Shown here one piece after another: positions 163 to 21,871 of a DNA stretch of 64,000 nt (the stretch's first letter is position 1; every line of letters starts with the position of its first letter). This DNA comes from a virus. Under the pieces are notes generated by a model. That model made no database searches, was not told the DNA's origin, and worked only from the letters and a program-made list of their open reading frames with translations. The stretch is taken from the IMG/VR virus record IMGVR_UViG_3300025009_001990, positions 1-64,000 of that record; one strand, given 5' to 3'. A program made the translations under genes and the position numbers.

Positions 163-180
163 ACAAAAAAAAACTAAAAG
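144..180. repeat. Perfect 12-base inverted repeat at the polymerase stop codon
   Basis: Arms 144-155 (CTTTTAGTTTTT) and 169-180 (AAAAACTAAAAG) are perfect reverse complements around a 13-base loop. The right arm includes the TAG stop of the DnaE-like gene. There is no clean T-run after it on the minus strand, so it is only a possible terminator or mRNA-end hairpin. It overlaps the -35 of the predicted promoter. Confidence 0.5.
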
Positions 181-5404: not shown

Positions 5405-5405
5405 A

Positions 5406-5828: not shown

Positions 5829-6529
5829 TAAATAATATCCTCTTCGTCCAATAAGTTTAAATTATCATCATCAAATATTGCGGCATCCCAAGCCTCAGTA
5901 AAATCGGAATCAGCAAAAACTTCAGTTAATCCAGAAATTTGACAAAGACGTAAAACCTCATCGGGATCCATTCCGAGTTCCTTACCTATTCTTGTATCGC
6001 TCCAATTTCGTTTTTTTAATTCGATAACAATATCTGACATTGCATTTATTTGATGTTTACCCCTCGCTCTATTATGCCTGATTGTTGAAGCGATACGGTC
6101 ATTTCGTCCTTCTTTATCTTTTTTTATTTTAACTATTGGGAGATAGCCATGGACTCGTTTTTTAACTGCAATACTTTCTTTTCCTATTCTGTTCCGATGA
6201 AAACCGTCAATAACCTCAATGTCATTTTTATTATTCCAGGTAACAATAGGTTGTGTATAACCATCTGATAAAATTGAATGTTCAAGTAATTCCATCTCTG
6301 GAGGAGCTACCGTATTTGGATTATAATCATTTGCGGCAACATTTTCATTTTTAACCCAAATTACACAATCAACCGGCTCATTTCGAAACGGACTATAATG
6401 AGATAATGCTATTTTAATTTTATTAATGGCATCAATTTTTTCATTGATTGATAATGATTGTAATTCAGAAAGCTTGTTTCTGATCTCTCTGACCAATTTT
6501 ATTTTTTTATTAAAGATAGTTCGTTTCAT
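5828..6529 (-). CDS. ibrB: IbrB-like ParB-domain protein
   Basis: 233 residues with a ParB/Srx-type N-terminal domain: LLEHSILSDGYTQPIVTW (81-98) and the phosphate-binding DGFHRNRIG (108-116). A helix-turn-helix-like C-terminal region follows (RIGKELGMDPDEVLRLCQISGL). ParB-fold proteins bind CTP or act as nucleases; in IbrB the domain is paired with IbrA. Its N-terminus is MKRT, like several unrelated proteins of this phage. It follows the radical SAM gene with one intervening base and is coupled to the 5406-5828 gene. Confidence 0.85.
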   Translation of the reverse strand: MKRTIFNKKIKLVREIRNKLSELQSLSINEKIDAINKIKIALSHYSPFRNEPVDCVIWVKNENVAANDYNPNTVAPPEMELLEHSILSDGYTQPIVTWNNKNDIEVIDGFHRNRIGKESIAVKKRVHGYLPIVKIKKDKEGRNDRIASTIRHNRARGKHQINAMSDIVIELKKRNWSDTRIGKELGMDPDEVLRLCQISGLTEVFADSDFTEAWDAAIFDDDNLNLLDEEDII

Positions 6530-6530
6530 T

Positions 6531-7445
6531 TTAATAAATTTTTGATTTTTCCCGAATATCTCTCGGGTCCATTAAAAGACCTCTGTGGTTGCCTTTTCGT
6601 AATATTTTAGGCAATTCAAATTCAGAATATGGAACTTTATCCATTATTCCATTTTTTGCTTTCATCCAATAATTTTTAAATCGCCTTAATTCGTATTCTG
6701 TCCAGCCATTCGCAGCATTAACAAAACCACCTTTGCTTTCAGAAAGCAAAGGTTGATACCTCATCGGGTATATTTCATTAACTTTTATTTCCCTGAGGTA
6801 TTCAGCGCGATAAAGAGCATCTGCTGGGGTATCGGTAAATCCATATAACATTAATACCGATATTTTTTTAATTCCATTATGGTGCGCTATTGTAACTGCT
6901 TTTTTAATATATTCTTCTTTATCGGTTGAATCAAACGCAAACCGAATATCTGTCAATTTTAATTCAGCAATTCTTGATGCTTTTTCTGATGTAAATAATT
7001 TTGCTTCTAATCCTTGGTTAAATTCAATATATGGGAGTTTTTTTAATTTATCAATTACGTTGTTGAAATGGTTTTTCGAAGACGCAAGAAAGTTATTATC
7101 ACAAACGATTGGTCTAGGAACGAAATTTTTAATTTCCCTAAAAACACCTTCTATCTTTGGGACAGCGCAAAAGCTACAATTATTGATACACCCTCTAGTT
7201 GTGAATGTTGCAAGAGGGTTATGGAATGTGATAGGCTCACACCAATCAATAGTTTCCTGGAGAGTAGCTATTCCATCAAATTTATTCCTTAAAAGAATAG
7301 CTCCAGGACCACCAACAACAACCTGTTTCTTTTGTTGTTTAATAAATCGCAATACCTCAGGAACAAGCCAAGTGAACGGGATTGAAATATAAATTATCCC
7401 GTTCACTTGCCAAGTGGCAAAGGTTTTTCGCCACTGATTGATCAT
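6531..7445 (-). CDS. Radical SAM protein, paralogue 1
   Basis: 304 residues from ATG 7445, which sits one base after the upstream stop with GGAAGAAA as ribosome site; longer starts would run into that gene. CINNCSFC (C86, C90, C93) is the CxxxCxxC that binds the [4Fe-4S] cluster of radical SAM enzymes. The N-terminal part has SIPFTW and VVVGGPGA, similar to the Rossmann part of cobalamin-binding radical SAM proteins. A second copy lies at 60887-61753 and shares SIPFTW.LPEV..F, VGGP, the cluster site, the NN.LA.SKNHF.KVIDKL segment and NQG. Substrate unknown. Confidence 0.85.
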   Translation of the reverse strand: MINQWRKTFATWQVNGIIYISIPFTWLVPEVLRFIKQQKKQVVVGGPGAILLRNKFDGIATLQETIDWCEPITFHNPLATFTTRGCINNCSFCAVPKIEGVFREIKNFVPRPIVCDNNFLASSKNHFNNVIDKLKKLPYIEFNQGLEAKLFTSEKASRIAELKLTDIRFAFDSTDKEEYIKKAVTIAHHNGIKKISVLMLYGFTDTPADALYRAEYLREIKVNEIYPMRYQPLLSESKGGFVNAANGWTEYELRRFKNYWMKAKNGIMDKVPYSEFELPKILRKGNHRGLLMDPRDIREKSKIY

Positions 7446-7446
7446 T

Positions 7447-8265
7447 TTATTTCTTCCACGAAAAAGTATTACCGGTTTTGACAACAAGACCAAGGATGAG
7501 GAGAGACGGAACAACGTATCCAAACATATAATTAGATACGTTTTCGTTTGTTTTTCCGCCATTTTCTACAAATAAAACATCGGCCAGTTTTACCATCTCT
7601 TCACGTGTAGCGGCCCCTTTTTGCAGTGAATCAATAAGAGCATGGCTACGAGTATATGCCAGTTTTATTTTTTTGGAACTTTCTTTTTTCTCGCCAGCTT
7701 TCTTCTTTGCAGGAGCAGTACCATCAGCAATTGCGGTCAGTTTGGTAGTTACGTATTCCCGCAGTTTTTTGATATCCTTCAGGAAAGGGGGTGGGCAGAC
7801 AATTCCGTTGTTTTTGGCGACTGCTTTCAGATCATCAAGAGTCTTTGCTTTTTTGAGGCCAAGCAGACACTTGTGAGCGTTGTCTCTTGCCTCGGTGTTG
7901 TCTTCTTCCGGCTCGGGATCAGCTTTCACCGATTTTTTACCGGATTTCTTTTTCTCAGAAACGGGAGGTGCTTCCTCCTCTGCTTCCTCCTCTGCTTCCT
8001 CCTCTGCTTCCTCAGCAGCTACCTGAGCGACGTTTTTCAATCCCATCAGTTTGAGGGTAGCAGCGGTTTCAGCAGAAATCGTATCGTCTGCCGTAAGATC
8101 CTCAGCTGCTTCCGTGATTTCGTCCGTCAATTCCTCAGCAGTAAGTTCAACATCGATTCCTTGACCTTCATCAAACATGAACGAATTGAAATCCTCTGCT
8201 ACCGCAACGAGTGCTTCGATAGTCGGTTTTACTGCTTTTTTTGTTGCTGCCGGTTTCTTTGCCAT
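7447..8265 (-). CDS. Hypothetical protein with acidic EEAEEEA repeats and Lys/Ala-rich linkers
   Basis: 272 residues. The N-terminus is Lys/Ala rich (MAKKPAATKK). The middle has an acidic repeat (EEAEEEAEEEAEEEA) encoded by about 3.7 copies of a 12-base unit at 7970-8013. A second Lys-rich linker precedes a possibly folded C-terminal domain (about 205-272). A strong AAGGAGAAAACC site precedes the ATG, and a promoter sits upstream at 8333-8361. The alternating charge resembles abundant nucleic-acid-associated proteins, but I do not recognise the family and assign no function. Confidence 0.75.
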   Translation of the reverse strand: MAKKPAATKKAVKPTIEALVAVAEDFNSFMFDEGQGIDVELTAEELTDEITEAAEDLTADDTISAETAATLKLMGLKNVAQVAAEEAEEEAEEEAEEEAPPVSEKKKSGKKSVKADPEPEEDNTEARDNAHKCLLGLKKAKTLDDLKAVAKNNGIVCPPPFLKDIKKLREYVTTKLTAIADGTAPAKKKAGEKKESSKKIKLAYTRSHALIDSLQKGAATREEMVKLADVLFVENGGKTNENVSNYMFGYVVPSLLILGLVVKTGNTFSWKK

Positions 8266-8332
8266 GGTTTTCTCCTTGAAGAAATTAAGGTTGTATGTGA
8301 GAAGGATTTTGATTTCTTCTCTGTATACGACT

Positions 8333-8361
8333 ATTATAAGTACTCTCCATCAAATCGTAAA
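8333..8361 (-). promoter_or_regulatory. Predicted promoter for the 8265-to-174 gene run
   Basis: Minus-strand -35 TTTACG (8361-8356), 17-base spacer, TATAAT (8338-8333), about 68 bases before the ATG at 8265. The -35 overlaps a perfect 14-base palindrome AAAGAAATTTCTTT (8359-8372) that could be an operator. Confidence 0.6.
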
Positions 8362-8389
8362 GAAATTTCTTTGGTAATGCAAAAAAAAA

Positions 8390-9934
8390 TTAGTAAGAAT
8401 ATGTTAATGGTCTTCCCTGGGCCAGACTTTGAAGTATGGTAACATATTGATTTTCGTTACATTCGTCTTCACGAACCGCTAATTTTCCCAACCTCATCAC
8501 CCCTCGTTTTTTTTCTTCCGGGAGCTGATTCATGGTAATCATCCCTGTTACATGACTAAATTTTCGCTTGTCTTCACTGAAGTTTTTCATCGTGATCCAC
8601 TTAGAATAGTAGCTCGCTGCATCGGACTGAGATGCAGAAATTACTAAACAGTGTCGCTGTTGACTCAATCCTCGTATCCCTGCCCAAATGCTGTTTTGCT
8701 GATGTCGGAATTGTTCTCCTTTTTCCGGGACAAGTAAATCCATGTAGTCAATAATTAGCACGTCAGGAACAAATCCTATTTCTAATTCCCAAATGCCGAG
8801 TTTCTTTTTAATTTCTGAAATTGTTAATGATTCATTCGGATATGCTTCAATTAGTAATTTTGCTTTCTTTCCCCATCTTCTTTGATAAATTTCTCCTTGT
8901 TTTGTTGCTTCTGACCATTCTAAAACTTTTACAGGATCTCTAATTTTAAACCATGCTGCTGGTTGATATCTTTCAAATCTCTTTTCGTCTCGAAAACACT
9001 CAATACAAGTGGAGTAATCATTGTCTTCATCCCAAGAAATATATTCCTTTGTTTCTGAATTTCTAATTACCCGCTCTTTTCCTCCCGATGGGCTTTCCTC
9101 ACAACTTCCTGTTTGATTTTGATAGCAGTCCAAGCACGGAACTTTTATTTCTTTACAAAACTTTTGTCTGTTTGATCTTCCGGTAAATCTTATTCCATAT
9201 CGAACAAGCATTTGTGCTCTGGTCATATCCCCAGCGGCAAAGAAAGCAACATTTCGTCCCGCTCTTCTTGCCGCTATTGACATCTCAATGAGCATCCATG
9301 TTTTCCCTCTTTTTTCCGGACCAAGAAGAGTAACGAACGAATCAGGGATAAACAAATCGTCAAGAAATTTACCAGCAGCACCAGGAAGGCGAAAGAGCGG
9401 AGTCGATGAAGTTTCAAACGCTTTCGCCATTTCTTCTGAATTGCTTAGCGGATCGACGATTTTTTCAGAACGTATAGAAAGACTCTTATAATTTAAAATC
9501 GTTCGCTGTGCGTCAACCAGAGCGTTTTTTGAAAGAGAATTAGAAACGCTCTTAGCTACAAATTCAAGATTTTTCGTTTCAAGATACTTTTCAGTCTGAT
9601 CCAGAAGGTATTCAACGTTAAATTGTTCGGCTCTTTCATAATCTTCCGAAAGCGAACTGAGTAAATCTTCAATGAGCGAAAGTTCGTCTTCTTCGATATT
9701 TCCCTCTTTTTCTTCTTTTTTGAAAATGTCCTCAATATGAATTCCAGGGGCTTTTTTAAATTGCTGATAATATCTGGAAACCCATTTAGCTACTGTGCAA
9801 ATATACGGGGTAGTAATTAAATCGATTCTGAAAATATGCTGTACGGCTTTGAAATATTCATCGCTTACAATCAATCCTTGGATTATTTGACGTTCAGGAT
9901 TCTCTTTTACTTTTCTTCTTCGATATCCAGCCAT
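8390..9934 (-). CDS. dnaB: DnaB-like replicative helicase
   Basis: 514 residues. The N-terminal helical domain (ERQIIQGLIVSDEYF) resembles DnaB. The RecA-like domain begins near 180 with Walker A GPEKRGKT (205-212) and has Walker B VLIIDYMDLL in the C-terminal half. An insert between them carries Cys260, 267, 270, 278, 310 and 313, a likely zinc-binding element not typical of DnaB. It would unwind the fork together with the DnaC-like loader (10373-11080) and primase (12156-13073). AAAGGAATGAT precedes the ATG. Good confidence in the class, less in details of the insert. Confidence 0.88.
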   Translation of the reverse strand: MAGYRRRKVKENPERQIIQGLIVSDEYFKAVQHIFRIDLITTPYICTVAKWVSRYYQQFKKAPGIHIEDIFKKEEKEGNIEEDELSLIEDLLSSLSEDYERAEQFNVEYLLDQTEKYLETKNLEFVAKSVSNSLSKNALVDAQRTILNYKSLSIRSEKIVDPLSNSEEMAKAFETSSTPLFRLPGAAGKFLDDLFIPDSFVTLLGPEKRGKTWMLIEMSIAARRAGRNVAFFAAGDMTRAQMLVRYGIRFTGRSNRQKFCKEIKVPCLDCYQNQTGSCEESPSGGKERVIRNSETKEYISWDEDNDYSTCIECFRDEKRFERYQPAAWFKIRDPVKVLEWSEATKQGEIYQRRWGKKAKLLIEAYPNESLTISEIKKKLGIWELEIGFVPDVLIIDYMDLLVPEKGEQFRHQQNSIWAGIRGLSQQRHCLVISASQSDAASYYSKWITMKNFSEDKRKFSHVTGMITMNQLPEEKKRGVMRLGKLAVREDECNENQYVTILQSLAQGRPLTYSY

Positions 9935-9946
9935 ATCATTCCTTTA

Positions 9947-10180
9947 TCAAAAATCAATAAACGGCAAATCTTGCATTAGTATTCTAGCCTGATTAAAATG
10001 GCCTTCGAGTTTTTGAACATTATCCGGGAATTTTAATCTTAAAATAATACGTCTTCCTGTACTAATACTCATTCTTTCGGCTTGTTGTATATTTTCCCAT
10101 GCTCGAACCGGGGCAATTATCATTCCTGTTTTTTTATATTTTAATAATTTTTTAAAACTACAAACATGATAAACAATCAT
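9947..10180 (-). CDS. Small hypothetical protein
   Basis: 77 residues with AAAGGAATAAT before the ATG. The start MIVYHVCSFKKLLKYKKTG and a later R.W..........A weakly resemble the first elements of ADP-ribosyltransferase-type folds (YH...G...R), but the protein is too short for a secure call. It lies between the helicase and loader genes and is expressed with them. Confidence 0.6.
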   Translation of the reverse strand: MIVYHVCSFKKLLKYKKTGMIIAPVRAWENIQQAERMSISTGRRIILRLKFPDNVQKLEGHFNQARILMQDLPFIDF

Positions 10181-10181
10181 A

Positions 10182-10388
10182 TTATTCCTTTATCAATTCT
10201 CCGTCAGATTCGATAATGTCTTTTGGAAAAACAGCAATTTCACCTGTTAGGAACTGAATTTCACCTGTTAGGAACTGAATTTCAAAACATATAAATTGAA
10301 GAAAGTAAGTTTCTTTCAAAACTCGAAACGGAATACAAATATCTGTTTTGTGCCTGTAAAACTGACCCGGCTTTATTTGTTGTTCCAT
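10182..10388 (-). CDS. Small hypothetical protein with an internal tandem repeat
   Basis: 68 residues. The peptide FLTGEIQ is repeated because of a perfect 21-base tandem duplication at 10239-10280. The ATG lies inside the end of the DnaC-like gene (overlap 10373-10388). No recognisable domain; its N-terminal half (GQFYRHKTDICIPFRVL) resembles a small beta-rich SH3-like segment, which is only a guess. Confidence 0.55.
   Translation of the reverse strand: MEQQIKPGQFYRHKTDICIPFRVLKETYFLQFICFEIQFLTGEIQFLTGEIAVFPKDIIESDGELIKE
10239..10280. repeat. Perfect 21-base tandem duplication
   Basis: Two identical head-to-tail copies of a 21-base unit (10239-10259 and 10260-10280) inside the 10182-10388 gene. 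The length is a multiple of three, so the frame is preserved. It looks like a recent slippage duplication. Confidence 0.85.
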
Positions 10389-11080
10389 TTGGTCCTGACT
10401 CTCTTTCGTTTGTCATTTCCTTTTATTTCAATTTCCCTACACATCCCGGCTATTCTGCTTGTTAACCTATCGTCATCCATTTTTTTACTTAGTTCTTGAA
10501 TGGACAAATTGGAAGTAATAAAAGTTGGTTTACTGTTTTCATATCGATGGTTGATAATTAGATAAATAACCTGTAAAGAAAAGTCAGAAGTTTTTTCAAT
10601 CCCCAAATCGTCCAAGCATAACCATTTTGATTTGGTGCATTCGTTAAATATTTCTTGTTCTCTATTTGATCTCGACTGATAAGATTGCCGAATTTCAAAA
10701 AGCATTTGTGGAACATTAAACCAAGCCCCATCATATTTAAGTTCATATCGGAGATTCAAATACAACCAAATAGCTGCTTGTTGACTTTTCCCTACCCCGG
10801 TTTTACCAAAAAGATAAAATCCCTGATTCTGTTCCCCGTTTTTAACTATCTTACTTTCGATAAATGAACAGGTTGATAATGGAGTTATATTTTTAACAAG
10901 ATTTATTGGAACAGAATCAGGGAGACATTTTTCAGGACTTTTTGTCAAAACATGTTTTTCAATTACGCAAGATGGACAATCTTTTCTTTTAGCTGCTGTC
11001 GCAACATCGTCTGAATCTTCCTCATCATAAAATTTCATTTCAAATTCTTTTTTGCAGGTTTCACAGATATTTTTTATCAT
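10373..11080 (-). CDS. dnaC: DnaC/IstB-like helicase loader ATPase
   Basis: 235 residues. N-terminal CETC (6-9) and CPSC (35-38) form a probable zinc finger. Walker A is GKTGVGKS (92-99), Walker B is WLCLDDLG (153-160), then sensor-1 FITSN and an arginine region DDRLTSRI. This is the order of DnaC/DnaI-type AAA+ loaders, which place the DnaB hexamer on DNA. Flanked by the helicase on one side and an initiator-like protein on the other, the assignment fits the context. Confidence 0.88.
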   Translation of the reverse strand: MIKNICETCKKEFEMKFYDEEDSDDVATAAKRKDCPSCVIEKHVLTKSPEKCLPDSVPINLVKNITPLSTCSFIESKIVKNGEQNQGFYLFGKTGVGKSQQAAIWLYLNLRYELKYDGAWFNVPQMLFEIRQSYQSRSNREQEIFNECTKSKWLCLDDLGIEKTSDFSLQVIYLIINHRYENSKPTFITSNLSIQELSKKMDDDRLTSRIAGMCREIEIKGNDKRKRVRTKWNNK

Positions 11081-11086
11081 TTTTGT

Positions 11087-11959
11087 TTAATCCTTCATAA
11101 TGACTGTTTCGTAATTGTCATCATATTTTCCTTCTTGATAAGCAGCTCCACCTTTTATACTTTTTGGTTTTTTCTTGTTTGAATATTTTCCTTCAAGAAT
11201 TTTCAGATAGTTTTGGTCATTAGCAACTATGAAATCAAAATTGATTTTCCAGCCACGATCATTATCTCCGAGCAGAAATTCGGAATCAGCAATTTTATCA
11301 AATATCTTTTTCCAACCTGATAACTTAGAAAGTTCGGGAGATTCTTCAATTCTTATTTTTATTTTATTTGTTCGGGATGGTGTTAATTTAATGACAGAAG
11401 GTAAATCTAATTTATCGGCTGTATCATTCCAAAGATCAATAATTTTTTTCGAAAAGGTACTAAAATCTTTTTTATTCTCCTTAGATTTATTCTCCTTAGA
11501 TTTATTCTCCTTAGATTTATTCTCCTTATTATTCGTACTGTTTTCGATAGGTCTATTCGTACTGTTTTCGATATCTCTAGGGGTTCGATTTTCGATACCC
11601 CTAGTCGTAACGTATTTTTCTATTAGATTTTCTATATTTAGATAATAAAATTCTTTAGCTGGGATGCCCTTCATATGGGTTTTTAAGATTCCAATTTCTA
11701 TTAATTTCCTTTTATTATTCCTTAACTGTAAACGAGACATTCCGATTTGTTCTGTTTGATCTTCGAAAGTAAGAAAAAATGAACCATCTTTTTCCAACAT
11801 ATTCCTGTTTAGAAAGTATTTATATTTATCAATAAGGTTACATAAAAAAACAGTTAAATCTAATCCGAATATTTTGATGAGAGATTTATTTAAAATAATA
11901 AACCCATCTGAACTAAATGCTTCCAGTGCTAATAGTTGGGAATTTCGATCTATATTCAT
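11087..11959 (-). CDS. Replication initiator-like protein with winged-helix N-terminus
   Basis: 290 residues. The first 120 (FFLTFEDQTEQIGMSRLQL.NNKRKLIEIGIL) look like a winged helix of phage initiator or DnaD/replication-protein-O type. A low-complexity linker of KENKS repeats follows, from a 15-base tandem repeat at 11471-11528. The C-terminal domain (about 170-265) resembles the segment often fused to such initiators, with WKKIFDKI and GWKINFDFIV. It sits directly before the DnaC-like loader, as initiators usually do. AAAAGGAGATCAG precedes the ATG. No specific family can be proven by eye. Confidence 0.65.
   Translation of the reverse strand: MNIDRNSQLLALEAFSSDGFIILNKSLIKIFGLDLTVFLCNLIDKYKYFLNRNMLEKDGSFFLTFEDQTEQIGMSRLQLRNNKRKLIEIGILKTHMKGIPAKEFYYLNIENLIEKYVTTRGIENRTPRDIENSTNRPIENSTNNKENKSKENKSKENKSKENKKDFSTFSKKIIDLWNDTADKLDLPSVIKLTPSRTNKIKIRIEESPELSKLSGWKKIFDKIADSEFLLGDNDRGWKINFDFIVANDQNYLKILEGKYSNKKKPKSIKGGAAYQEGKYDDNYETVIMKD
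11471..11528. repeat. 15-base in-frame tandem repeat (about 3.9 copies)
   Basis: Units at 11471-11485, 11486-11500 and 11501-11515 are identical, and 11516-11528 is a partial fourth copy. They encode the KENKS linker of the initiator-like protein. A 20-base direct repeat with tactgttttcgata follows just downstream. Confidence 0.85.
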
Positions 11960-12130
11960 TTCTGATCTCCTTTTGCGTGAAAGAAGCTATGAAAAAGGAA
12001 GAAGAGGAAGGTACGGCAAACGTCAATTTCTGTCAGGACCATTCAGAATGTTGACTACCTTCCCCCGGCAGAAGCCAAACAGGGGATCAGTCTGTTTTCT
12101 TTGAAGGAGGGGAAAAAGTCCAGTAATCTT

Positions 12131-12159
12131 ACTATAAGCTATTTTCTAATTTCGATTAA
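12131..12159 (-). promoter_or_regulatory. Predicted promoter before the initiator/loader/helicase genes
   Basis: Minus-strand -35 TTAATC (12159-12154), 17-base spacer, TATAGT (12136-12131). It is followed by a leader of about 165 bases before the ATG at 11959. The leader has nested inverted repeats (TTCCCC with GGGGAA around AACAG/CTGTT) and CATTC-T-GAATG. Confidence 0.5.
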
Positions 12160-13073
12160 AAAATATTTTTTAAAAGTTCTCTCATTAAATTATCAGCATC
12201 ATTCTGATTCATTTCCCCTGGATCTTCATCTTTCAAATCAATGATTATCACTTCTCTATTCCCATTAGAGAGACAATTTGCTAATTTCTCAGCTTGTTCT
12301 ACTGCTGTAGGTTCAGGATCAAATAAAATAAATATCTGCTTGAAAGGTAATAACAATTTGACTTGAGACAATGTAAACTTAATTCCGAATGTAGCAACTG
12401 ATCCTGGCCCCAATCTCCAAACGTCAGTTACTCCTTCACAAACAACAACAGAATCACTTTTAACAAGGCCTAATCCATAGAGACATGCTTTATGATCTCT
12501 TGATTCAAAATCAGCAGGACAGGCCTTATATTTCATTTTGCTCTTGTCTGTTATATCCCTTCCTTGATAACTAACGAGTTTGTTCTGATAATAAATCGGT
12601 ATTATAATTCTGTGGTTAAAATTCCCGATTGGCCCTGTTCCTTTTATTTTCCAAATTTCTTTTAACTTCTCATGATCAAAATTTCTATTTTCTAAATATC
12701 GAATATGTTGCTTCTTCAGTTCGGTTGTTCCTGACGGCAATTTACATTCTTTTCTTGATTTCCTTTCTTTTTTTTGATAAGGAATATATGAGCCGTCAAC
12801 TTGATATTTTTTTAATATCGGATAGATACTATCTTCATCAAGTTTTAAAACGATAGATAGAACATGAACAACGTTTTTCCCTCCTCCGCATCTCCAGCAG
12901 GAATATCTGCCAGCAAATTTAGAGGAGTCGTCAATGCAATATCCGAGATGAAATCCGGAATGTCCCGAACAGAAAGGGCATGGAATTCCTATCCAACCGA
13001 GAGAAACGTGTTTGTGTCCTCCGATTTGGTAGGAAATTCCAAAATCCTCATAGAGCTTGATTATGTTGATCAT
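12156..13073 (-). CDS. dnaG: DnaG-type DNA primase
   Basis: 305 residues. Zinc-binding domain with C32, C35, C59 and C62 (CPFC and CWRC), as in primases. A TOPRIM-like core carries the catalytic glutamate in VVVCEGVTDV (E213) and FDPEP (251-255) for metal binding. Shorter than cellular DnaG and lacking the C-terminal helicase-binding domain, as is common in phages. Its ATG overlaps the stop of the preceding 88-residue gene (ATGA). It supplies RNA primers for the DnaE-like polymerase. Confidence 0.88.
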   Translation of the reverse strand: MINIIKLYEDFGISYQIGGHKHVSLGWIGIPCPFCSGHSGFHLGYCIDDSSKFAGRYSCWRCGGGKNVVHVLSIVLKLDEDSIYPILKKYQVDGSYIPYQKKERKSRKECKLPSGTTELKKQHIRYLENRNFDHEKLKEIWKIKGTGPIGNFNHRIIIPIYYQNKLVSYQGRDITDKSKMKYKACPADFESRDHKACLYGLGLVKSDSVVVCEGVTDVWRLGPGSVATFGIKFTLSQVKLLLPFKQIFILFDPEPTAVEQAEKLANCLSNGNREVIIIDLKDEDPGEMNQNDADNLMRELLKNIF

Positions 13074-13336
13074 GTCTTTTCAACAACACATTTGCAGTTC
13101 TTGAAATTCATTAACGAGCAGAAGTCAACAGTACAGGCCTTTTCATCATAGCGGTGAATTGTTCTATGAGGGCAACTTCCCCCGTACCAACACGTTTTGG
13201 CCATAGAGCAGATGTGTTGTTTTCGAATCCTATCTTTCGAAATTGCTCTAGGCTGATCGGTTTTAGTTATGTTAGTAGGTAGAGATGGGTATACGGTTCT
13301 TTTACGTTTTTTTAAAGGAGGTTTTGTCCTTTTCAT
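13070..13336 (-). CDS. Small basic Cys/His-rich protein
   Basis: 88 residues. A basic N-terminus (MKRTKPPLKKRKRT) leads to a C-terminal cluster of seven Cys plus His (CSMAKTCWYGGSCPHR, then CTVDFC and CKC), which suggests a metal site. The start shares MKRTK with terminase and sigma-like proteins of this phage. Coupled by ATGA to the primase. Family not recognised. Confidence 0.7.
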   Translation of the reverse strand: MKRTKPPLKKRKRTVYPSLPTNITKTDQPRAISKDRIRKQHICSMAKTCWYGGSCPHRTIHRYDEKACTVDFCSLMNFKNCKCVVEKT

Positions 13337-13337
13337 T

Positions 13338-15062
13338 TTAGTTTTCCTTTGTTATTTTTTGAAGCAGTGCTGAAAGAAGATTTATATCATCGACTTTCTT
13401 TCCATCAAGAATAGCGGCAAGTATTTTTCTTTTATTGTCGAGCAATTCCGCTATATCTTCCTCTATTGTTCCGGCGGCAAGCAAATAATATGCTGTTACT
13501 GAATCGGCTTCTTGTCCAATCCTATGTGGCCTTGCTTCGGCCTGGTCGTGTTCACCTGGCGTCCACCACAATTCAAGAAAGCATGTTGCATGAGCTGCTG
13601 TTAACGTAATCCCCTCTTTTGCTGATCTTGAACCGATGAATACTTTACACTCAGGATCATTTTGAAACCGATCCACAGCGGCTTGTCTATCTTTCAAACT
13701 CGTATTCCCATAAACAAGTACAGCAGCTTTCTGAAAGTGTTCAAATACTTTTTCGAGAATAGTATGATGCTCTCCAAACACAATGAGTTTTTCCCCGCTT
13801 TCAATATAGTTTTCAATCCATTCAAGTGCTAAATCCATTTTGAGTTCAGCGGTTAACTGTTTTGCTTTTTCGATAACAGCAAGATGTTCAGCCTCATTTT
13901 CTTTTAATTCTTCTCTGATTCTCGAAAGGATTTTCTCATATTTATTCAAATCAATTTCAAGAGGGACAACAGTTCTGATTAATGGGGGAAGGTCTTTTAA
14001 AACATCTTTTTTTAATCTTCTAATCATTATTGATTGAGTAAGAAGTTTGTGAAATTCCTTTTTATTTGATGCTCCAGTTACGTTCCAACCGTATCCATCC
14101 CATTTTCTGTCGCAATATCGTTTCGTGAACTGCCACCAATCAGGAATAATATGTTTGTTAACCATTCGAATAACCCCGTAATATTCGATAGGCCGATTTA
14201 CAATAGGAGTTCCCGACATGGGAATTACATGGCTTGCTGATTTCGTTAATTCCTCTGCTGCAATAGTTCGCCCTGCTGATGGATTCTTCAAATAGTGTGA
14301 TTCGTCAAATACGATTGTTTTTATATTCAGATCTTTTATTTGTGAATTTAATTGATAAAGTTTTCCTTTACCTTTACAGTTATTGCATTTTATTCCATGT
14401 TGTTTTTTCGTTCCGTTGCATATCGGACAGGTAATGGATTCATGAATTATATCATAGTTTACAATATAGATATCCTGTCTGTTTCCTCCTGGGAAAGTTG
14501 TGAATTTCTTTTTATTTTTCCCTTCAATTATTACTGGTTCAAGATCGGTAAATTTTAATGCTTCTCTGGCCCAATTCAATTTTAGGCTTGAAGGGCAAAT
14601 GATAAGAGCCGGGAGAACAGTTTTTTTATTTAGATGAATCCAACCGAGAGCTTGAATTGTTTTTCCAAGTCCCATTTCATCCCCTATAATTGCTCTCCCT
14701 TTTTTTTGTTCGAGAAATTGAATTCCCTCTTTTTGAAAAGGGTAGAGGTCAATTCGAAGGCCAGGAACAGAAAAATTAGTTGAAAGAGATGGAACTTTTT
14801 CTTTCTGAATAGATATCCACTTGTTCAATTTTCTTCCGAAAACAAAGCCAAGTTTTTGTAAATTGCTACAAACGAAAGTATCAACGGGGATTCTCCAACT
14901 TTTGTTTTCTTTATTCCATTTTCTTCCCGGAAACGTTTTAATTTCCTCAATCAGATTAGGATTGTACGGAAATTTGACTTCAATCATCCCTTCTCTTCTG
15001 ATCAATTCGGCAGAAAGAATATTTTGAAGGTTTTTCCGATTCAGCGGCAGGTTTGTTTTCAT
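13338..15062 (-). CDS. SNF2-family helicase (SMARCAL1/HARP-like)
   Basis: 574 residues. The N-terminal 90 (FPYNPNLIEEIK.FPGRKWNKENKSWRIP) matches the HARP-like substrate domain. Motif I is GDEMGLGKT (127-135), motif II is DESH (253-256), and the C-terminal helicase half ends in RPHRIGQ and GTIEEDI. Cys212, 215, 226 and 229 form a zinc finger inserted between motifs Ia and II. Such enzymes remodel forks and drive annealing or branch migration. No good ribosome site is visible before ATG 15062, so the start is less certain. Confidence 0.9.
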   Translation of the reverse strand: MKTNLPLNRKNLQNILSAELIRREGMIEVKFPYNPNLIEEIKTFPGRKWNKENKSWRIPVDTFVCSNLQKLGFVFGRKLNKWISIQKEKVPSLSTNFSVPGLRIDLYPFQKEGIQFLEQKKGRAIIGDEMGLGKTIQALGWIHLNKKTVLPALIICPSSLKLNWAREALKFTDLEPVIIEGKNKKKFTTFPGGNRQDIYIVNYDIIHESITCPICNGTKKQHGIKCNNCKGKGKLYQLNSQIKDLNIKTIVFDESHYLKNPSAGRTIAAEELTKSASHVIPMSGTPIVNRPIEYYGVIRMVNKHIIPDWWQFTKRYCDRKWDGYGWNVTGASNKKEFHKLLTQSIMIRRLKKDVLKDLPPLIRTVVPLEIDLNKYEKILSRIREELKENEAEHLAVIEKAKQLTAELKMDLALEWIENYIESGEKLIVFGEHHTILEKVFEHFQKAAVLVYGNTSLKDRQAAVDRFQNDPECKVFIGSRSAKEGITLTAAHATCFLELWWTPGEHDQAEARPHRIGQEADSVTAYYLLAAGTIEEDIAELLDNKRKILAAILDGKKVDDINLLSALLQKITKEN

Positions 15063-15395: not shown

Positions 15396-15424
15396 ATTAT
15401 AGTCTGTTTGATAATAAAAGTTAA
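15396..15424 (-). promoter_or_regulatory. Predicted promoter after the sigma-like gene
   Basis: Minus-strand TTAACT (15424-15419), 17-base spacer, TATAAT (15401-15396). The -35 overlaps the TAA stop of the sigma-like gene. It would drive the 15347 gene, SNF2 helicase and primase. The same TTAACT -35 recurs at 56147-56174. Confidence 0.6.
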
Positions 15425-15954
15425 GAATTTTTTAACATCTCCTCTATTTCATGAACTGCCTTCCAATATCGCGGCCATTTCCACAATAATGTTTCTCGGC
15501 AGTGTTCTTTTAAATCTCTTCTAATATCTCTTTTGTTGCAAGTTGTCGGAATCGGCCATTTTGTTCTTTTTGATTCTATTCCAACATTTTGAAAAATACA
15601 TCTGATTATCGTCTTAGCATCTTTAGAGAGATGTTGAATATTGTCTTTGAATTCAACAAGTTTACAAGGATCTTCTACCCCATCAATTCCAAGTGCTTCT
15701 TCTATTTCGATAAAACAATTTGGATGCGGGTGAATTTTATGATTATTTCTGTTCATCTTTTGTAAAAGTAAATTGTGGTATAGCCAGGTGCAAAACTTTC
15801 CCTTTTTTGGATCATGAGTTTTGCAGGCTTTTACAAAAGGTTCATGTCCATCACCATTCAAAAAAGCCTGTCTTCCAAGGATTTTACATATTAATCCCTG
15901 GAAGTTTTCGTATTTAGGCGGTTCACATTTTAAGGGAAATTTTGTTCTTTTCAT
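15421..15954 (-). CDS. Sigma-factor-like protein
   Basis: 177 residues. The segment AFLNGDGHEPFVKACKTHDPKKG and then KFCTWLYHNLLLQKMNR resembles the sigma70 region 2 pattern (A..af.ka...yd...g.F.tWl...i). LSKDAKTIIRCIF may mark the start of a region 4-like part, with a basic helical C-terminus. This suggests a phage-encoded transcription factor that could redirect host RNA polymerase. Coupled by ATGA to the upstream 60-residue gene. The match is to a pattern only, so it could be another helical regulator. Confidence 0.5.
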   Translation of the reverse strand: MKRTKFPLKCEPPKYENFQGLICKILGRQAFLNGDGHEPFVKACKTHDPKKGKFCTWLYHNLLLQKMNRNNHKIHPHPNCFIEIEEALGIDGVEDPCKLVEFKDNIQHLSKDAKTIIRCIFQNVGIESKRTKWPIPTTCNKRDIRRDLKEHCRETLLWKWPRYWKAVHEIEEMLKNS

Positions 15955-16133
15955 CTTTTTACTCGTTCGAAAAGCCTTTTTAGGGACAGGCGGGTGGAAT
16001 CGGTTTTAGAATCATAGGAAATATTATCGATAGACCAACTAGCGTGTTTAGATAAATAGAAATCTCCGATTGAAAAAAACCAAACAAAATCTCCTTCAAT
16101 TATGAAAATCTGTTTGTATTGTGTTCTTTTCAT
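15951..16133 (-). CDS. Small hypothetical protein with MKRT start
   Basis: 60 residues, strong AAGGAGGAATATT before the ATG, and an N-terminal half of alternating hydrophobic and aromatic residues followed by a basic end. It is the first gene after repeated element A (16153-16212) and overlaps the sigma-like gene by ATGA. Family unknown. Confidence 0.65.
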   Translation of the reverse strand: MKRTQYKQIFIIEGDFVWFFSIGDFYLSKHASWSIDNISYDSKTDSTRLSLKRLFERVKR

Positions 16134-16152: not shown

Positions 16153-16212
16153 GTTTAACCACTCAACTTCCGGCTGGGATATTTCTACCCCAGCCTTGGT
16201 TCAGGGGTTAAG
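16153..16212 (-). ncRNA. Candidate structured RNA element, copy A
   Basis: On the minus strand an outer stem TTAACC (16211-16206) pairs with GGTTAA (16160-16155). An inner stem GGCTGGG (16195-16189) pairs with CCCAGCC (16178-16172). Single-stranded CCTGAACCAA and AGTTGAGT lie between the stems. A related element with conserved unpaired parts and changed inner-stem bases lies at 17248-17305. It begins at the stop codon of the hexapeptide-repeat gene and ends about 20 bases before the ATG at 16133, so it would be in that gene's leader. Class unknown. Confidence 0.6.
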
Positions 16213-17005
16213 AAATCATTTGGATAACAAGGTTAATGATTTTTACACATTTTTCGTAATCTTTACAGAGGTTTTTATATACTTTTGATTCAAGAATTTC
16301 AGGCCACTCTTGAATTGTATGTAATTTGCAACCTACTTGGATATAATTACAATATGCTGTTATATTCCATTCGCAGGCGTTTATCATACATATTGGTGAA
16401 ATTTTTATTTCAGCATCTCCGGACACCTGAGCATTTCCGTGCACCTGAGCATCTCCGTACACCCAAGCATCTCCGGACACCTGAGCATTTCCGGACACCC
16501 GAGCATTTCCGTACACCCAAGCATCTCCGTACACCTGAGCATTTCCGTACACCTGAGCATCTCCGTACACCTGAGCATCTCCGGACACCCAAGCATTTCC
16601 GGACACCTGAGTATTTCCGTGCACCCAAGCATCTCCGTACACCTGAGCATCTCCGTACACCTGAGCATTTCCGTGCACCTGAGCATTTCCGTACACCTGA
16701 GCATCTCCGTACACCTGAGCATCTCCGTACACCTGAGCATTTCCGTGCACCTGAGCATCTCCGTACACCCAAGCATCTCCGGACACCTGAGCATTTCCGG
16801 ACACCTGAGCATTTCCGTGCACCCAAGCATCTCCGTACACCTGAGCATTTCCGTGCACCCAAGCATTTTCAATTTGAGAAAGATTTGATTCTTTTTCGAT
16901 CAAACCACCAAGATCTCCAATTTTTATATCAAATTTAGAGATATTAATGAGGGATTTAATTCTAAACATTCCATTTTCTTGCGGAATCATTTCGTATTTT
17001 TTCAT
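16208..17005 (-). CDS. Hexapeptide-repeat (beta-helix) protein
   Basis: 265 residues. The N-terminal domain (MFRIKSL...IKIGDLGGLIEKESNLSQ) is the leader seen in a phage family that continues as hexapeptide repeats. Here 25 consecutive hexads of the form NAxVxG or DAxVxG (about 60-210) predict a left-handed beta-helix. A Cys-containing C-terminal domain follows. CTAAAGGAGAACATC precedes the ATG. The role of such phage proteins is unproven; hexapeptide helices are typical of acyltransferases, but catalytic histidines are not evident in the repeat. Confidence 0.8.
   Translation of the reverse strand: MKKYEMIPQENGMFRIKSLINISKFDIKIGDLGGLIEKESNLSQIENAWVHGNAQVYGDAWVHGNAQVSGNAQVSGDAWVYGDAQVHGNAQVYGDAQVYGDAQVYGNAQVHGNAQVYGDAQVYGDAWVHGNTQVSGNAWVSGDAQVYGDAQVYGNAQVYGDAWVYGNARVSGNAQVSGDAWVYGDAQVHGNAQVSGDAEIKISPICMINACEWNITAYCNYIQVGCKLHTIQEWPEILESKVYKNLCKDYEKCVKIINLVIQMIS
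16412..16865. repeat. 18-base tandem repeat array, about 25 units
   Basis: Units of 18 bases with variants at a few positions (ca-tctccg or ca-tttccg, then tac, tgc or gac, then acctga or accca) run head to tail. Because 18 is a multiple of three, the array keeps most of the six frames open, which creates long spurious frames on both strands. The minus frame with start, ribosome site and flanking unique domains is the real gene. Confidence 0.95.
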
Positions 17006-17513: not shown

Positions 17514-17556
17514 ATCATCCTCCTGCCCGGATTCCGCCGGGCTAGGTTGTTTGTAT

Positions 17557-17817
17557 TTATTCAATAATCTTGACTCTCTGAAGAGTTTTTTGAGTAGTTA
17601 CTATTGCATGAATATCAATTTCTTTATTGTGCCAGTTTGAGAAACTGTATTTCCACGCGGCAGCTTCATTAAACCATTTGTAAATAACGTCATTTATTTT
17701 AAAATAGACACAACCAGCCTCAAATGGACAATTACTAGATCTCATTTCCGAACCAGTACCGTTTATAACCGCTTTACCAGAAAATCTTATCTTTCCATCA
17801 CTTAATTTATCATTCAT
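17557..17817 (-). CDS. First gene of the leftward operon, hypothetical
   Basis: 86 residues with AATAAGGGGATTCACC before the ATG. Beta-rich with two Cys and several Trp; the N-terminal third (GKIRFSGKAVINGTG) looks like a beta-barrel edge. No family recognised. It is the first protein after the hammerhead ribozyme; its cleaved mRNA would begin at 17880, 63 bases before the start codon. Position at the head of an early operon suggests an immediate-early role. Confidence 0.65.
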   Translation of the reverse strand: MNDKLSDGKIRFSGKAVINGTGSEMRSSNCPFEAGCVYFKINDVIYKWFNEAAAWKYSFSNWHNKEIDIHAIVTTQKTLQRVKIIE

Positions 17818-17833
17818 GGTGAATCCCCTTATT

Positions 17834-17887
17834 TAGTGTTTCGCCCTGAATGGGCTCGTCAGTTTGATTTACAAATCAAAGACACTA
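17834..17887 (-). ncRNA. Hammerhead ribozyme (type III topology)
   Basis: All invariant core parts are present. The stem III 5' arm TAGTG (17887-17883) is followed by U16.1 and C17, giving cleavage triplet GTC (17883-17881). Stem I is TTTGAT/ATCAAA with loop TTGTAA (17880-17863). Then come CTGACGA (17862-17856), stem II GCCC/GGGC with loop ATTCA (17855-17843), GAAA (17842-17839) and the stem III 3' arm CACTA (17838-17834). Predicted self-cleavage lies between 17881 and 17880. It sits in the 5' leader of the leftward operon, between the promoter at 17989-18017 and the ATG at 17817. Confidence 0.92.
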
Positions 17888-17896
17888 TTTTCGTCA

Positions 17897-17943
17897 TCTG
17901 GTAGAGCGCTCTGCAACTACCAGACCATCTCCACCCTTCGGGT
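17897..17943 (-). other. Two leader hairpins upstream of the ribozyme
   Basis: TCTGGTAG (17924-17917) pairs with CTACCAGA (17904-17897) around a 12-base loop. Just before it, ACCC-GAA-GGGT (17943-17933) forms a short hairpin. After ribozyme cleavage both would be on the released leader of about 100 nt. The rest of the 387-base gap (17818-18204) holds the two divergent promoters and AT-rich sequence with TTAACG direct repeats near 18026-18040; I see no gene in it. Confidence 0.55.
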
Positions 17944-17988
17944 TCTCCTTTAAGTTCCCCCTTTCCTCTCTTCTCCTCTATATACTTA

Positions 17989-18017
17989 ACTATAAGCTTT
18001 CTGTTGATGGAAGTAAA
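17989..18017 (-). promoter_or_regulatory. Predicted promoter of the leftward early operon
   Basis: Minus-strand TTTACT (18017-18012), 17-base spacer, TATAGT (17994-17989). Transcription would start near 17982 and run through the leader hairpins and hammerhead ribozyme into the 17817 gene. Confidence 0.6.
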
Positions 18018-18204: not shown

Positions 18205-18804
18205 ATGAAACGGACCAAACCACCAATCAAACAACCCAAGAAAAAAGCGAAGAGGCAAAGACGTCAAAGAAACCTCTTGGGGATAGAACATAGCTACTTT
18301 GGTACAGAACTCTGGAGAGTATGTGATTGGAATGATGCAGGAAGGCCAAAAGTGTTTAATTCCCCTAACGAGATGATGGTCGCTTGCAACAAGTACTTCC
18401 AGTGGGTCGCAGAAAACAGCTTGATGGAAGAAAAAACGGTTGGACAGTATATGGGAAAAGTACTTACCCATAAGAGTTCGAAGATGAGAGCAATGACCAT
18501 ACGAGGTATGTGTGTGTTTATTGGGATTACTACAATGACATGGGGAGAATACAGAAAAAAACCTGAATTTTCTTATATTGTACAAAAAGTGGAAACAATC
18601 ATATACGAACAGAAGTTCACGGGTGCTGCTGCTGGATTGTTGAGAACAGATATCATCGCAAAGGAACTGGGGTTGATAGATCGACAGGACATTACCTCTG
18701 GAGATAGACCAATTCAAGGAACATCAGTTGAAGTGACGATGAATATGAATGTGAAGGAAGCCGAAAGAGCATATAAGCAGATGTTGAAGGATGAAATAAA
18801 TTGA
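18205..18804 (+). CDS. terS: Terminase small subunit
   Basis: 199 residues. A very basic N-terminus (MKRTKPPIKQPKKKAKR) precedes a helical domain with a helix-turn-helix-like segment (MRAMTIRGMCVFIGITTMTWGEYRK) and the family pattern KFTGAAAGLLRTDIIAKELGL. TerS recognises the packaging site and feeds DNA to TerL, which follows with a TTGA overlap. First gene of the rightward operon. The MKRTK start is shared with other proteins here. Confidence 0.85.
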   Translation: MKRTKPPIKQPKKKAKRQRRQRNLLGIEHSYFGTELWRVCDWNDAGRPKVFNSPNEMMVACNKYFQWVAENSLMEEKTVGQYMGKVLTHKSSKMRAMTIRGMCVFIGITTMTWGEYRKKPEFSYIVQKVETIIYEQKFTGAAAGLLRTDIIAKELGLIDRQDITSGDRPIQGTSVEVTMNMNVKEAERAYKQMLKDEIN

Positions 18805-20462
18805 CAAGTATTGCCCCTAATATGTGGCCACCTAATTACGTGGCTGAATTTGTTTCCCGGTACAATAGGATAAAACAAATGAGGGATAATCCTGTTTTGA
18901 TTGTTGGGGCAAAAGAATATTATTCACATCCTGAGAATTGGGTCGAGTTCATTCAACATTGGATGATTACATACGATCCTCGAAACAGCAAAACAAAAGA
19001 TCTCCCCTCCACTATCCCTTTTATTTTCTTTCCAAGACAAAAACAATTTTTTAATTTTCTGCTTTCGTGTTGGCAAGATGGTGAAAATGGATTAGTTGAA
19101 AAATGTAGAGATATGGGAGCAACTTGGGAATGTTGCTCTTTTGCTGTTTGTATGTGGCTATTCTCTGAAGGATCGTCGGCAGGATTTGGAAGCAGAAAAG
19201 AACAGCTTGTTGATAAGATTGGTGACCCCGATTCGATATTTCAAAAGATTCGAATGCTTATTGATAATATTCCAACTTTTTTTCTTCCTGAAGGGTTTAA
19301 TCAAAAGATCCATTCCTCTTATATGAAGTTGATAAATCCTGAGAATGGAGCAACGATAACAGGAGAAGCAGGAGATAATATTGGAAGGGGTGGAAGAAAG
19401 TCAATTTATTTTAAGGATGAATCTGCCCATTACGAAAGGCCAGAATTGATTGAAGCCGCTCTTGGAGATAATACTGATTGTCAGATCGATATATCCTCCG
19501 TAAACGGAACCGCTAATGTATTTGCCCGTAAAAGACAAAGCGGAGTTGTTTGGGATGGAATAAATCAAATAGAAAGGGGACAAACAAGGGTATTCATATT
19601 TGATTGGAGAGATCATCCGGCTAAAACTCAAGAATGGCATGATCGAAGAAGGGACAAAGCCGAACGGGAAGGACTCCTTCATATATTCGCTCAAGAAGTT
19701 GAGCGGGATTATTCAGCGGCTGTAGAGGGTATTCTCATTCCCGCACAATGGGTACAGTCCGCTGTTGATCTCGACAAGCGATTTCCTAAATTTGCTGCTT
19801 TGATGAAACATGGTCAGATATTTTCTGCTTTGGATGTCGCTGACGAAGGTGGGGATCTTAATTCACAGGCAGATAGAAAAGGGATTACATTGATTGGGCT
19901 TGATAAGTGGGCTCAGGGGGATACGGGTGAGACTGCGAATAAAGCGGTAATGAGATGCAGGATGATTCGAGCGGCAGAATTGTTTTATGATTGTATTGGG
20001 GTTGGAAGTGGAATAAAGGCTGAAACAAATAGATTGAAACGCGAAAATATATTGCCAGCCAATTTGAAAGTTATTCCATGGAATGCTGCCGATTCAGTAA
20101 ATAATCCTAATGGACATTCAATTCAAGGAGATAACGAAAGTCCGCTGAATAAAGATTTGTATAAGAATTTAAAAGCGCAAGGTTGGTGGAATTTAAGGAC
20201 TCGTTTTGAAAAGACATGGAGATTTGTAACGAAAGGCACTCAATACCCTATGTCTGAATTGATAAATATACCATCAGATATAAATCATTTTAACGAATTG
20301 ATATCAGAATTAAGTCAACCGACATATTCTCATAATTCTGAAGGGAAAATAATTGTAGATAAAAAACCAGACGGAACAAGAAGTCCTAATTTGGCTGATT
20401 CTGTGAATATGGTATATTGGCCTGTTGAATCGACAAAACAAGCAGGAGTATGGGGACGATGA
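18801..20462 (+). CDS. terL: Terminase large subunit
   Basis: 553 residues. It starts at TTG 18801, overlapping the TerS stop with AAGGATG upstream; ATG 18822 has no ribosome site. The ATPase shows a Walker A-like KCRDMGATW (101-109) and Walker B SIYFKDESAHYE near 205-216. The C-terminal RNase H-like nuclease has its first acidic site in SALDVADEGGD. It powers headful or site-specific packaging through the portal. It ends in ATGA with the portal gene. Confidence 0.92.
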   Translation: MTSIAPNMWPPNYVAEFVSRYNRIKQMRDNPVLIVGAKEYYSHPENWVEFIQHWMITYDPRNSKTKDLPSTIPFIFFPRQKQFFNFLLSCWQDGENGLVEKCRDMGATWECCSFAVCMWLFSEGSSAGFGSRKEQLVDKIGDPDSIFQKIRMLIDNIPTFFLPEGFNQKIHSSYMKLINPENGATITGEAGDNIGRGGRKSIYFKDESAHYERPELIEAALGDNTDCQIDISSVNGTANVFARKRQSGVVWDGINQIERGQTRVFIFDWRDHPAKTQEWHDRRRDKAEREGLLHIFAQEVERDYSAAVEGILIPAQWVQSAVDLDKRFPKFAALMKHGQIFSALDVADEGGDLNSQADRKGITLIGLDKWAQGDTGETANKAVMRCRMIRAAELFYDCIGVGSGIKAETNRLKRENILPANLKVIPWNAADSVNNPNGHSIQGDNESPLNKDLYKNLKAQGWWNLRTRFEKTWRFVTKGTQYPMSELINIPSDINHFNELISELSQPTYSHNSEGKIIVDKKPDGTRSPNLADSVNMVYWPVESTKQAGVWGR

Positions 20463-21871
20463 AAAGAACTAAGGGGATACAACTTACTTCTGCCGAAAAA
20501 GATGAACAGTTGAGGCGGAATTTATTATACAGGGTATTGGCTACGAGTATATTGGGATCAAGGACATCATACGGCGGAACTCAAACATTTGGCGGATTGA
20601 GGGATGTTTCATCAGCTCTCGGATATCCTCTGTTGGATGGAATTAAATATGCTGACTATTACTATCGATTCAGACGGCAGGATGTTGCGAATGTAATAAT
20701 CACAAAACCTGTAGAATCGAGCTGGGAACGATTTCCAGTGCTACATGCATGGGAAGATAAGGAAGACACTTTTCGTTACGCCTGGGACGATTTCGAAAAG
20801 AAGAATCGAATCTATTCTATTTTACAGCGTGCTGATGTAATATCCGGAATAGGGAGATACGGAGTTTTGTTGATGGGATTAAATGACGGAGCGGATTCTT
20901 TTGCTGTCCCTGTTACATCAGCATCAGAACTTTTGTATCTTCAACCTTTCTCTGAAGATAACGCAACAATAAAGAGTTTTGTAATAGATAAAAACAACCC
21001 TCGTTTTGGTCAACCTGAATTTTATTCTCTGAAATTGAACGACAATCCAGGATTGACAGGAGTTAGCACTTTTGAAATTATTGTTCATCATTCCAGAATT
21101 ATTCATATAGCGGACAATCTTGTTGAGTCGAATATATACGGAATGCCAAGATTGGAAAAAGCATTTAACCGGCTTTTAAATCTTGAATTGATTGTTGGTG
21201 GTTCTGCCGAGATGTTTTGGCAAGGGGCGTTTCCCGGTTTAGCATTTCAAGCAAAAGACGGATTCACGATATCTGAAACTCAATTAACAGATTTACAGGA
21301 AGAAATAAAAAACTATGTACATCAGATGGAAAGGTACATGCGTCTTCAGGGGATGGATGTAAAGAGTCTTGCCCCTATTGTTGCTGATCCTTCCAAACAT
21401 GTTGATGTACAAATGAAGATGATCTCAATTGCAACTGGAATACCGAAGAGAATATTGGAGGGAAGTGAAAGGGGAGAATTAAGTTCTGATCAAGATTCAC
21501 AGAATTGGGCAAAGAAATGTGACAACAGAAGAAAAACATACATTGAACCGTTTATCCTTCGAATGTTGATCGATAGATTGAACGAATTGGGGATATTTAA
21601 AACTCCTGATGACGGATATACAATTGAGTGGCCTGACCTTCAAGATCCAAGCGAGAAAGACAGAGCGGAAGTCGGCAGAATAAGATCAGAGGCAATCAGC
21701 AAATACACTTCTTCCCCTGACGCGCAATTGATCATTTCTTTTGAATCGTTCCTTGAAGAGATAATGGAATTGAGTCCTGAAAAAGTCGAAAGGATTATGG
21801 AAGAGTCGAAAAACATTGTTCCCACTGAGCCTGATGGGGGAGGTGATGATGAAATTGAGACATTAAAATAA
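20459..21871 (+). CDS. Portal protein (DUF1073 type)
   Basis: 470 residues from ATG 20459, which overlaps the TerL stop; an ATG three codons earlier lies inside that gene. Sequence features fit the DUF1073 portal family: GYPLLDGIKYADYYYRFRRQDVANVII, GRYGVLLMGLNDG, and the C-terminal PKRILEGSERGELSSDQDSQNW with FI..ML..RL. The dodecameric portal forms the DNA channel and head-tail joint. Follows TerL directly. The N-terminus is MKRTK. Confidence 0.85.
   Translation: MKRTKGIQLTSAEKDEQLRRNLLYRVLATSILGSRTSYGGTQTFGGLRDVSSALGYPLLDGIKYADYYYRFRRQDVANVIITKPVESSWERFPVLHAWEDKEDTFRYAWDDFEKKNRIYSILQRADVISGIGRYGVLLMGLNDGADSFAVPVTSASELLYLQPFSEDNATIKSFVIDKNNPRFGQPEFYSLKLNDNPGLTGVSTFEIIVHHSRIIHIADNLVESNIYGMPRLEKAFNRLLNLELIVGGSAEMFWQGAFPGLAFQAKDGFTISETQLTDLQEEIKNYVHQMERYMRLQGMDVKSLAPIVADPSKHVDVQMKMISIATGIPKRILEGSERGELSSDQDSQNWAKKCDNRRKTYIEPFILRMLIDRLNELGIFKTPDDGYTIEWPDLQDPSEKDRAEVGRIRSEAISKYTSSPDAQLIISFESFLEEIMELSPEKVERIMEESKNIVPTEPDGGGDDEIETLK

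Follow-up and report, generated by a model that had tools for sequence, protein, structure and literature searches.

The window, a stretch of 64,000 nucleotides of viral DNA, bears on its minus strand (17833–17888) what is, judged by its core, its fold, Rfam and phage-trained models and covariation in relatives, a real, complete and canonical type III hammerhead, ordinary as a ribozyme and predicted to cleave itself. In our preferred reading, to which we assign a probability of about two in three, this hammerhead would process the leader of the early (replication) operon without the aid of a protein, releasing that leader and giving the mRNA a hairpin-capped 5′-OH end. The same order of promoter, folded leader, ribozyme, ribosome site and first gene, with the terminase on the opposite side, appears to recur in many unrelated phages.

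Sequence and fold of the hammerhead

Read on the minus strand from 17888 to 17833, the element is AUAGUGUC^UUUGAUUUGUAAAUCAAA CUGACGA GCCC AUUCA GGGC GAAA CACUAA, where ^ marks the predicted cut. The initial annotation had described a complete core, and the conserved positions (C3U4G5A6N7G8A9, G12A13A14A15.1, U16.1 and H17) were indeed all found, as CUGACGA (17856–17862), GAAA (17839–17842) and GUC. Stem III pairs 17882–17887 with 17834–17839 (strands AUAGUGU/ACACUA(A)), stem I pairs 17874–17880 with 17863–17869, and stem II pairs 17852–17855 with 17843–17846 (GCCC/GGGC). The minimum free energy (MFE) and centroid folds as well as the models all gave three helices, of which stem III is open and stems I and II carry loops, in agreement with the type III arrangement proposed earlier. 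The stem lengths given there were 6, 6 and 4 bp; those of stem III (6 bp) and stem II (4 bp) were right, whereas stem I comprises 7 bp in the MFE fold and not 6. The MFE was -14.1 kcal/mol (z -2.9), a value reached by 1 of 200 shuffled sequences.

Cleavage is predicted between C17 (17881) and U1.1 (17880), as deduced from the position of C17 in canonical hammerheads, and this would leave 63 nt to the A of the ATG (17817), the same distance as previously claimed. Fast hammerhead cleavage requires a tertiary contact between loop I and loop II; by eye, the loops UGUA and AUUCA offered no clear loop I–loop II pairing conserved across the window's clade. The possibilities of another hammerhead in the window and of paired ribozymes able to make circular RNA were likewise discarded, as only one hammerhead was found.

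Model scores and chance controls

At Rfam gathering cut-offs, no match to the hammerhead region of the window was obtained. Scored directly, RF00008 matched it over its full length at 43.5 bits (E 4.5e-8 when 801 nt were searched), the only credible Rfam match, and over the 68,210-base virus record this was the sole match of that family (E 9e-10). The initial annotation had proposed an Rfam search as a check, with the lack of a match above threshold counting against a ribozyme; the search thus failed at the gathering score of 48.5, a curator's cut-off and not a biochemical feature, yet returned a clear score below it. We did not accept this shortfall as a refutation because clear phage relatives with covarying stems score below the cut-off too (L003, 40.0 bits; L049, 40.1 bits; L027, 36.7 bits).

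An independent covariance model, built from 11 unrelated phage hammerheads, none of them of the window's clade, gave 45.7 bits (E 2e-10) at this site and 12.6 bits at the next best place. We also scanned IMG/VR with a pattern in which stem III and the core were fixed and stems I and II left free. The full motif was present in 58 contigs, compared with 2 for the control, in which CTGA was scrambled to CAGT; three of the 58 (L018, L023 and L052) were without stems I and II.

Covariation and spread of the subfamily

Stems I and II covaried strongly across 61 hammerhead matches (43 distinct), with 96% of cells paired and both-sided changes in 11 of 16 pairs. The covariation score was 0.636, against 0.150 for shuffled and 0.04–0.10 for slid alignments, the alignment itself being fitted to the structure model and thus leaning toward structure. 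The slid controls, together with the free variation of stems I and II seen by eye, argue that the signal is real. The helices were kept by compensatory change in relatives, and within the window's own clade the second position of stem I appears as U-A, U-G and C-G.

Contigs L002/L009 were identical to the window in the hammerhead region. L003, whose TerS and TerL are 86–87% and 80% identical, respectively, to those of the window, kept the core and all stems with an altered stem I loop, and the hammerhead was present also in L007, L008, L010, L011 and L024. In the alignment of relatives, identity spans the leader, the ribozyme, the Shine-Dalgarno sequence and the ATG, and then ends; the first gene differs in almost every relative, while the leader up to the ATG is conserved. 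Two relatives carry a core A6 changed to G (L012:108–163, minus; L013:2431–2486, plus), with C-G at position 2 of stem I and an otherwise intact leader. Cleavage may therefore be dispensable or reduced in some phages, and these two hammerheads constitute a natural test of the need for it.

No named phage with the window's DNA was found in INPHARED, where the best TerS relatives had less than 60% identity. A pattern scan of 84,980 cellular genomes (a host-by-prophage search) gave 9 matches, of which only L153 was a real hammerhead, the same as that of viral contig L045; this hammerhead subfamily therefore appears to be essentially viral.

Two further settings were encountered. A TerS relative (L090:2404–2488, minus) has a hammerhead with enlarged loops (28.2 bits) immediately before an ATG, and its leader, which extends to about 2700, is longer, different and folded. 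L020 and L058 differ from the terminase-divergent setting: right behind the hammerhead comes a gene of 222 aa, and after it one of 371 aa with a P-loop-like motif.

Placement between start codon and terminase

Between the ribozyme and the ATG that opens the leftward operon lies a Shine-Dalgarno-like AAGGGG (17825–17830, minus). The first gene (17557–17817, minus) encodes 86 aa without a family match. Other small genes separate it from that of the SNF2-type helicase (13338–15062), and the leftward replication genes (174–15062, all minus) further include those for a DnaG-like primase (12156–13073), an IstB-like ATPase (10373–11080) and DNA polymerase III alpha (174–2879). About 320 nt on the other side of the ribozyme begins the divergent gene for the terminase small subunit TerS (phrog_606, PF16677; 18205–18804, plus), followed by those for the large subunit TerL (18801–20462, plus) and, also rightward, the portal. 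Since the replication genes run leftward and the terminase and portal genes rightward, the ribozyme heads the replication operon, which upholds the initial placement in the leader of a leftward early operon beside a divergent terminase.

This placement was kept in other loci. An ATG followed within 7–24 nt of the ribozyme in 45 of the 46 distinct sites with room, compared with 18% of random positions, where a downstream ORF was counted if it had at least 35 codons and started with ATG; as counted from the table, the spacing was 14–24 nt in 41 sites. By tblastn, TerS was found in 39 of 62 ribozyme loci and lay upstream on the opposite strand in 39/39, although these loci are not independent events, some having been fetched via TerS or being near-identical assemblies. 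The distance between TerS and hammerhead was 190–950 nt, except for two loci at 1.4 and 2.1 kb. Taking families as the independent units, five TerS PHROG families were represented (phrog_606, 51, 309, 1595 and 1206).

Loci were also collected by TerS regardless of the ribozyme. Among 80 phrog_606 loci, 8 contained a total of 10 hammerheads, all divergent and upstream, and the remaining 72, several of which have little upstream DNA, contained none; the hammerhead is thus not required for the operon layout. The marine phrog_51 collection had a hammerhead in 20 of 34 loci. Where identity was at least 64% and about 600 nt or more of upstream DNA was available, a divergent upstream hammerhead was present in 20/20, and four more distant phrog_51 loci with upstream room had no hammerhead. 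Tandem ribozymes, each before its own small ORF, occurred in L053, L055, L095, L016 and L048.

With regard to gene content, an ArdC-type anti-restriction gene (PF08401) directly follows the hammerhead as the operon's first gene in two loci, L025 and L039, and nine further loci have one no more than about 2.5 kb away; YqaJ and Sak recombination genes are found in the operons of other hammerhead loci. The ArdC, YqaJ and Sak genes support the designation of the operon as early, but the first gene is mostly without a known family.

Several other features of the region were recorded. A GC-rich hairpin, GCCCGGCGGAATCCGGGC (17525–17542, minus), immediately precedes the second gene's ribosome site; L003 has it too (about 738–757) although the adjoining genes differ, so that it looks like a constant element between exchangeable genes. 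Five unrelated predicted proteins (13070–13336, 15421–15954, 15951–16133, 18205–18804 and 20450–21871) have MKRT(K/Q) at or near their start, as does TerS of L003, L005, L024 and L049, and the underlying DNA is not one repeated motif. A gene for a YdcK-like beta-solenoid repeat protein (16208–17005, minus), with near-perfect DNA repeats, is open in several frames on both strands, and this gene follows in L003 also. At 4178–5404 (minus), a phage gene combines PAPS reductase and DUF3440 domains.

Predicted promoter and leader RNA

An early promoter is predicted at 17989–18017 (minus), with -35 TTTACT (18012–18017), a spacer of 17 and -10 TATAGT (17989–17994). Its 9 of 12 hexamer matches lie, taken alone, in the range of chance, as 5 such sites were found for 3.1 expected. 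By eye, a promoter stands at the same place in relatives with better hexamers, good by the sigma-70 standard, namely TTGACA-17-TATTAT in L007/L010 and TTGACC-17-TATAAT in L012/L013, and these aligned promoters support, as a prediction, the earlier claim that the ribozyme lies between a promoter and the first gene. If, as assumed here, transcription starts about 7 nt downstream of the -10, near 17982, promoter and cleavage site would delimit a released leader RNA of ~100 nt (17881–17982, minus).

Two hairpins were recognized in this leader. The first, P2 (GGG-GGAACUUAAAGGAGAA-CCC; 17940–17961, minus), has a GGS/SCC stem and a purine-rich loop common to the window, L007, L024, L049, L095, L146 and L149; its stem shows a coordinated change from GGG/CCC to GGC/GCC, and its loop is nearly invariant. 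The second, P3 (17900–17935, minus), has a 7-bp outer stem, GGUGGAG/CUCUACC, which pairs 7/7 in the window, L024, L049, L095 and L149 despite differing sequences, and 6/7 in L007. These pairs were counted on a hand-made alignment, which is weaker than a blind one, since MAFFT could not align P3. Against shuffles, and for a start set at 4 nt behind P2, P3 reached p values of 0.0007–0.03 in each of those five leaders and was not significant in L007 and L146. A scan for the P2 element identified 13 contigs, with a hammerhead directly behind it in 13/13. In the marine phrog_51 clade, the hammerhead is preceded by a different conserved leader, the hairpins of which appear by eye to covary, and no credible Rfam family was found in the leaders of either clade.

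Three candidates in this region were rejected. RNAalifold joined the leader start to stem III/I by a long-range pair, which is broken in L095 and unsupported; a short ORF overlapping the ribozyme (ATG ~17898, 12 codons) is, by eye, not kept in L007; and a tRNA-like reading of the leader found no backing from ARAGORN.

We put forward, tentatively and at less than even odds, that the leader represents a class of phage early-leader RNA not described before, defined by a hairpin with a GGARGUUAANCGAGAA loop and a variable 7-bp hairpin and receiving its 3′ end from the hammerhead. Leader and ribozyme together would then form a self-processing control module of early operons, shared by unrelated phages and combined with exchangeable first genes, anti-restriction genes included.

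Proposed processing role and alternative explanations

From the sequence, fold, covariation and conserved placement, we infer that cutting occurs, when it would take place and what purpose it would have. The leftward transcript would start near 17982 and fold its structured leader of ~100 nt, after which the ribozyme would fold and cut itself between 17881 and 17880, freeing a leader with a 2′,3′-cyclic phosphate end. The early mRNA would gain a 5′-hydroxyl at 17880, capped at once by stem I and situated 63 nt before the start codon. On general grounds, decay that depends on a 5′-phosphate would be expected to act poorly on a 5′-OH beside a terminal hairpin, and the cut should unlink the first ribosome site from the leader fold. 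The net effect would resemble that of RNase III processing ahead of T7 gene 0.3 or in the lambda PL leader, with no need for a host enzyme. The tandem ribozymes, each ahead of its own small ORF, would fit such a processing role. Both effects that the initial annotation had considered, a 5′-OH mRNA end and a separated leader RNA, are candidates with indirect support.

Among the alternatives, most weight goes to the released leader RNA as the actual product, which we regard as unlikely. The ribozyme would then serve to trim the 3′ end of a ~100-nt structured phage RNA acting in trans or on RNA polymerase (a put-/nut-like antiterminator or a decoy being examples), and the mRNA end would be a by-product. 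Only the position and fold of the leader are suggestive of a put/nut-type antiterminator. That the leader is folded and conserved is seen in the full pairing of P3 in five divergent leaders, the joint change in the P2 stem and the nearly invariant P2 loop; moreover, in none of the 13 contigs did the leader lack a hammerhead behind it, and the second clade has another conserved leader in the same position. However, the leader matches no Rfam family, P3 is weak in L007 and L146, and the second tandem ribozymes inside operons (L053, L055 and L095) have no such leader ahead of them.

We consider it improbable that the hammerheads are mobile or vestigial insertions that spread with accessory gene cassettes and are functionless for the phage. 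While the change of first gene from phage to phage behind a constant leader, the tandem copies ahead of small ORFs and the one clade with a changed core base would suit such an origin, stems kept by compensatory changes, a fixed distance to the ATG and a fixed side of the terminase across five TerS families argue against it, and the conserved part is the leader and not the gene. A chance sequence merely resembling a hammerhead is highly improbable, since against the score under the Rfam gathering cut-off stand the E values of 4.5e-8 (RF00008) and 2e-10 (independent model), a core intact in relatives at 80% protein identity and the 2 contigs of the scrambled-core scan versus 58 with the full motif.

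Comparison with known systems

A functional parallel to a leader-processing hammerhead is RNase III processing in the lambda PL leader and ahead of T7 gene 0.3, where the cut falls just before the first early ribosome site and makes the 5′ end of the mRNA. This is an analogy only: there, a host protein cuts and leaves a 5′-phosphate, whereas in the window the RNA is predicted to cut itself and to leave a 5′-OH.

Type III hammerheads (RF00008) of phages and prophages were reported by Perreault et al. 2011 (PMC3088659) and reviewed in PMC6155905, and share with that of the window the core, the permutation, the stems and the location in phage genomes. Both adjoin small non-conserved ORFs and some anti-restriction genes, which are ardA in PMC3088659, behind hammerheads in Agrobacterium and Legionella, and ArdC in the present loci. 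In the parts consulted, these two papers stress integrases, prophages and gene-flanking ribozymes and do not describe a place opposite the terminase or a conserved folded leader.

The hammerhead of Pseudomonas phage PaP3, whose activity has been reported (PMC3088659), lies at 44070–44123 (minus) in NC_004466 and is a weak match to the present subfamily (18.8 bits). Like that of the window, it belongs to a leftward early operon diverging from the terminase side, here of a circular map; unlike it, it has small ORFs on either side within the operon, and its distance to TerS, measured across the origin, is ~3.4 kb.

In haloviruses HF1/HF2, an early polycistronic transcript has a hammerhead placed 13 nt ahead of the start codon of its first gene, and the 5′ end of this transcript was mapped within 3 nt of the cleavage site (PMC3088659). 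The likeness to the window lies in a hammerhead shortly before the first gene of an early operon, and the mapped end gives, by analogy, an in vivo hint for leader processing. However, HF1/HF2 are archaeal viruses, their variant hammerhead is discussed with divergent cores, the first gene is a helicase, and a terminase-divergent leader is not described in the relevant part of PMC3088659.

According to PMC6155905, the role of bacterial and phage hammerheads is an open question in the field. The fixed architecture across five terminase families offers a concrete hypothesis, early-leader processing with a defined, predicted 5′-OH end at 17880, and the recurrence of the arrangement makes the job of these phage ribozymes testable; it also points to a conserved leader RNA outside all Rfam families. 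Within the portions of the open-licence papers covered by our search, a terminase-divergent early-leader module with a conserved folded leader seems not to have been described. On that basis, the placement is the new part, and HF1/HF2 are the published precedent for a hammerhead before the first early gene.
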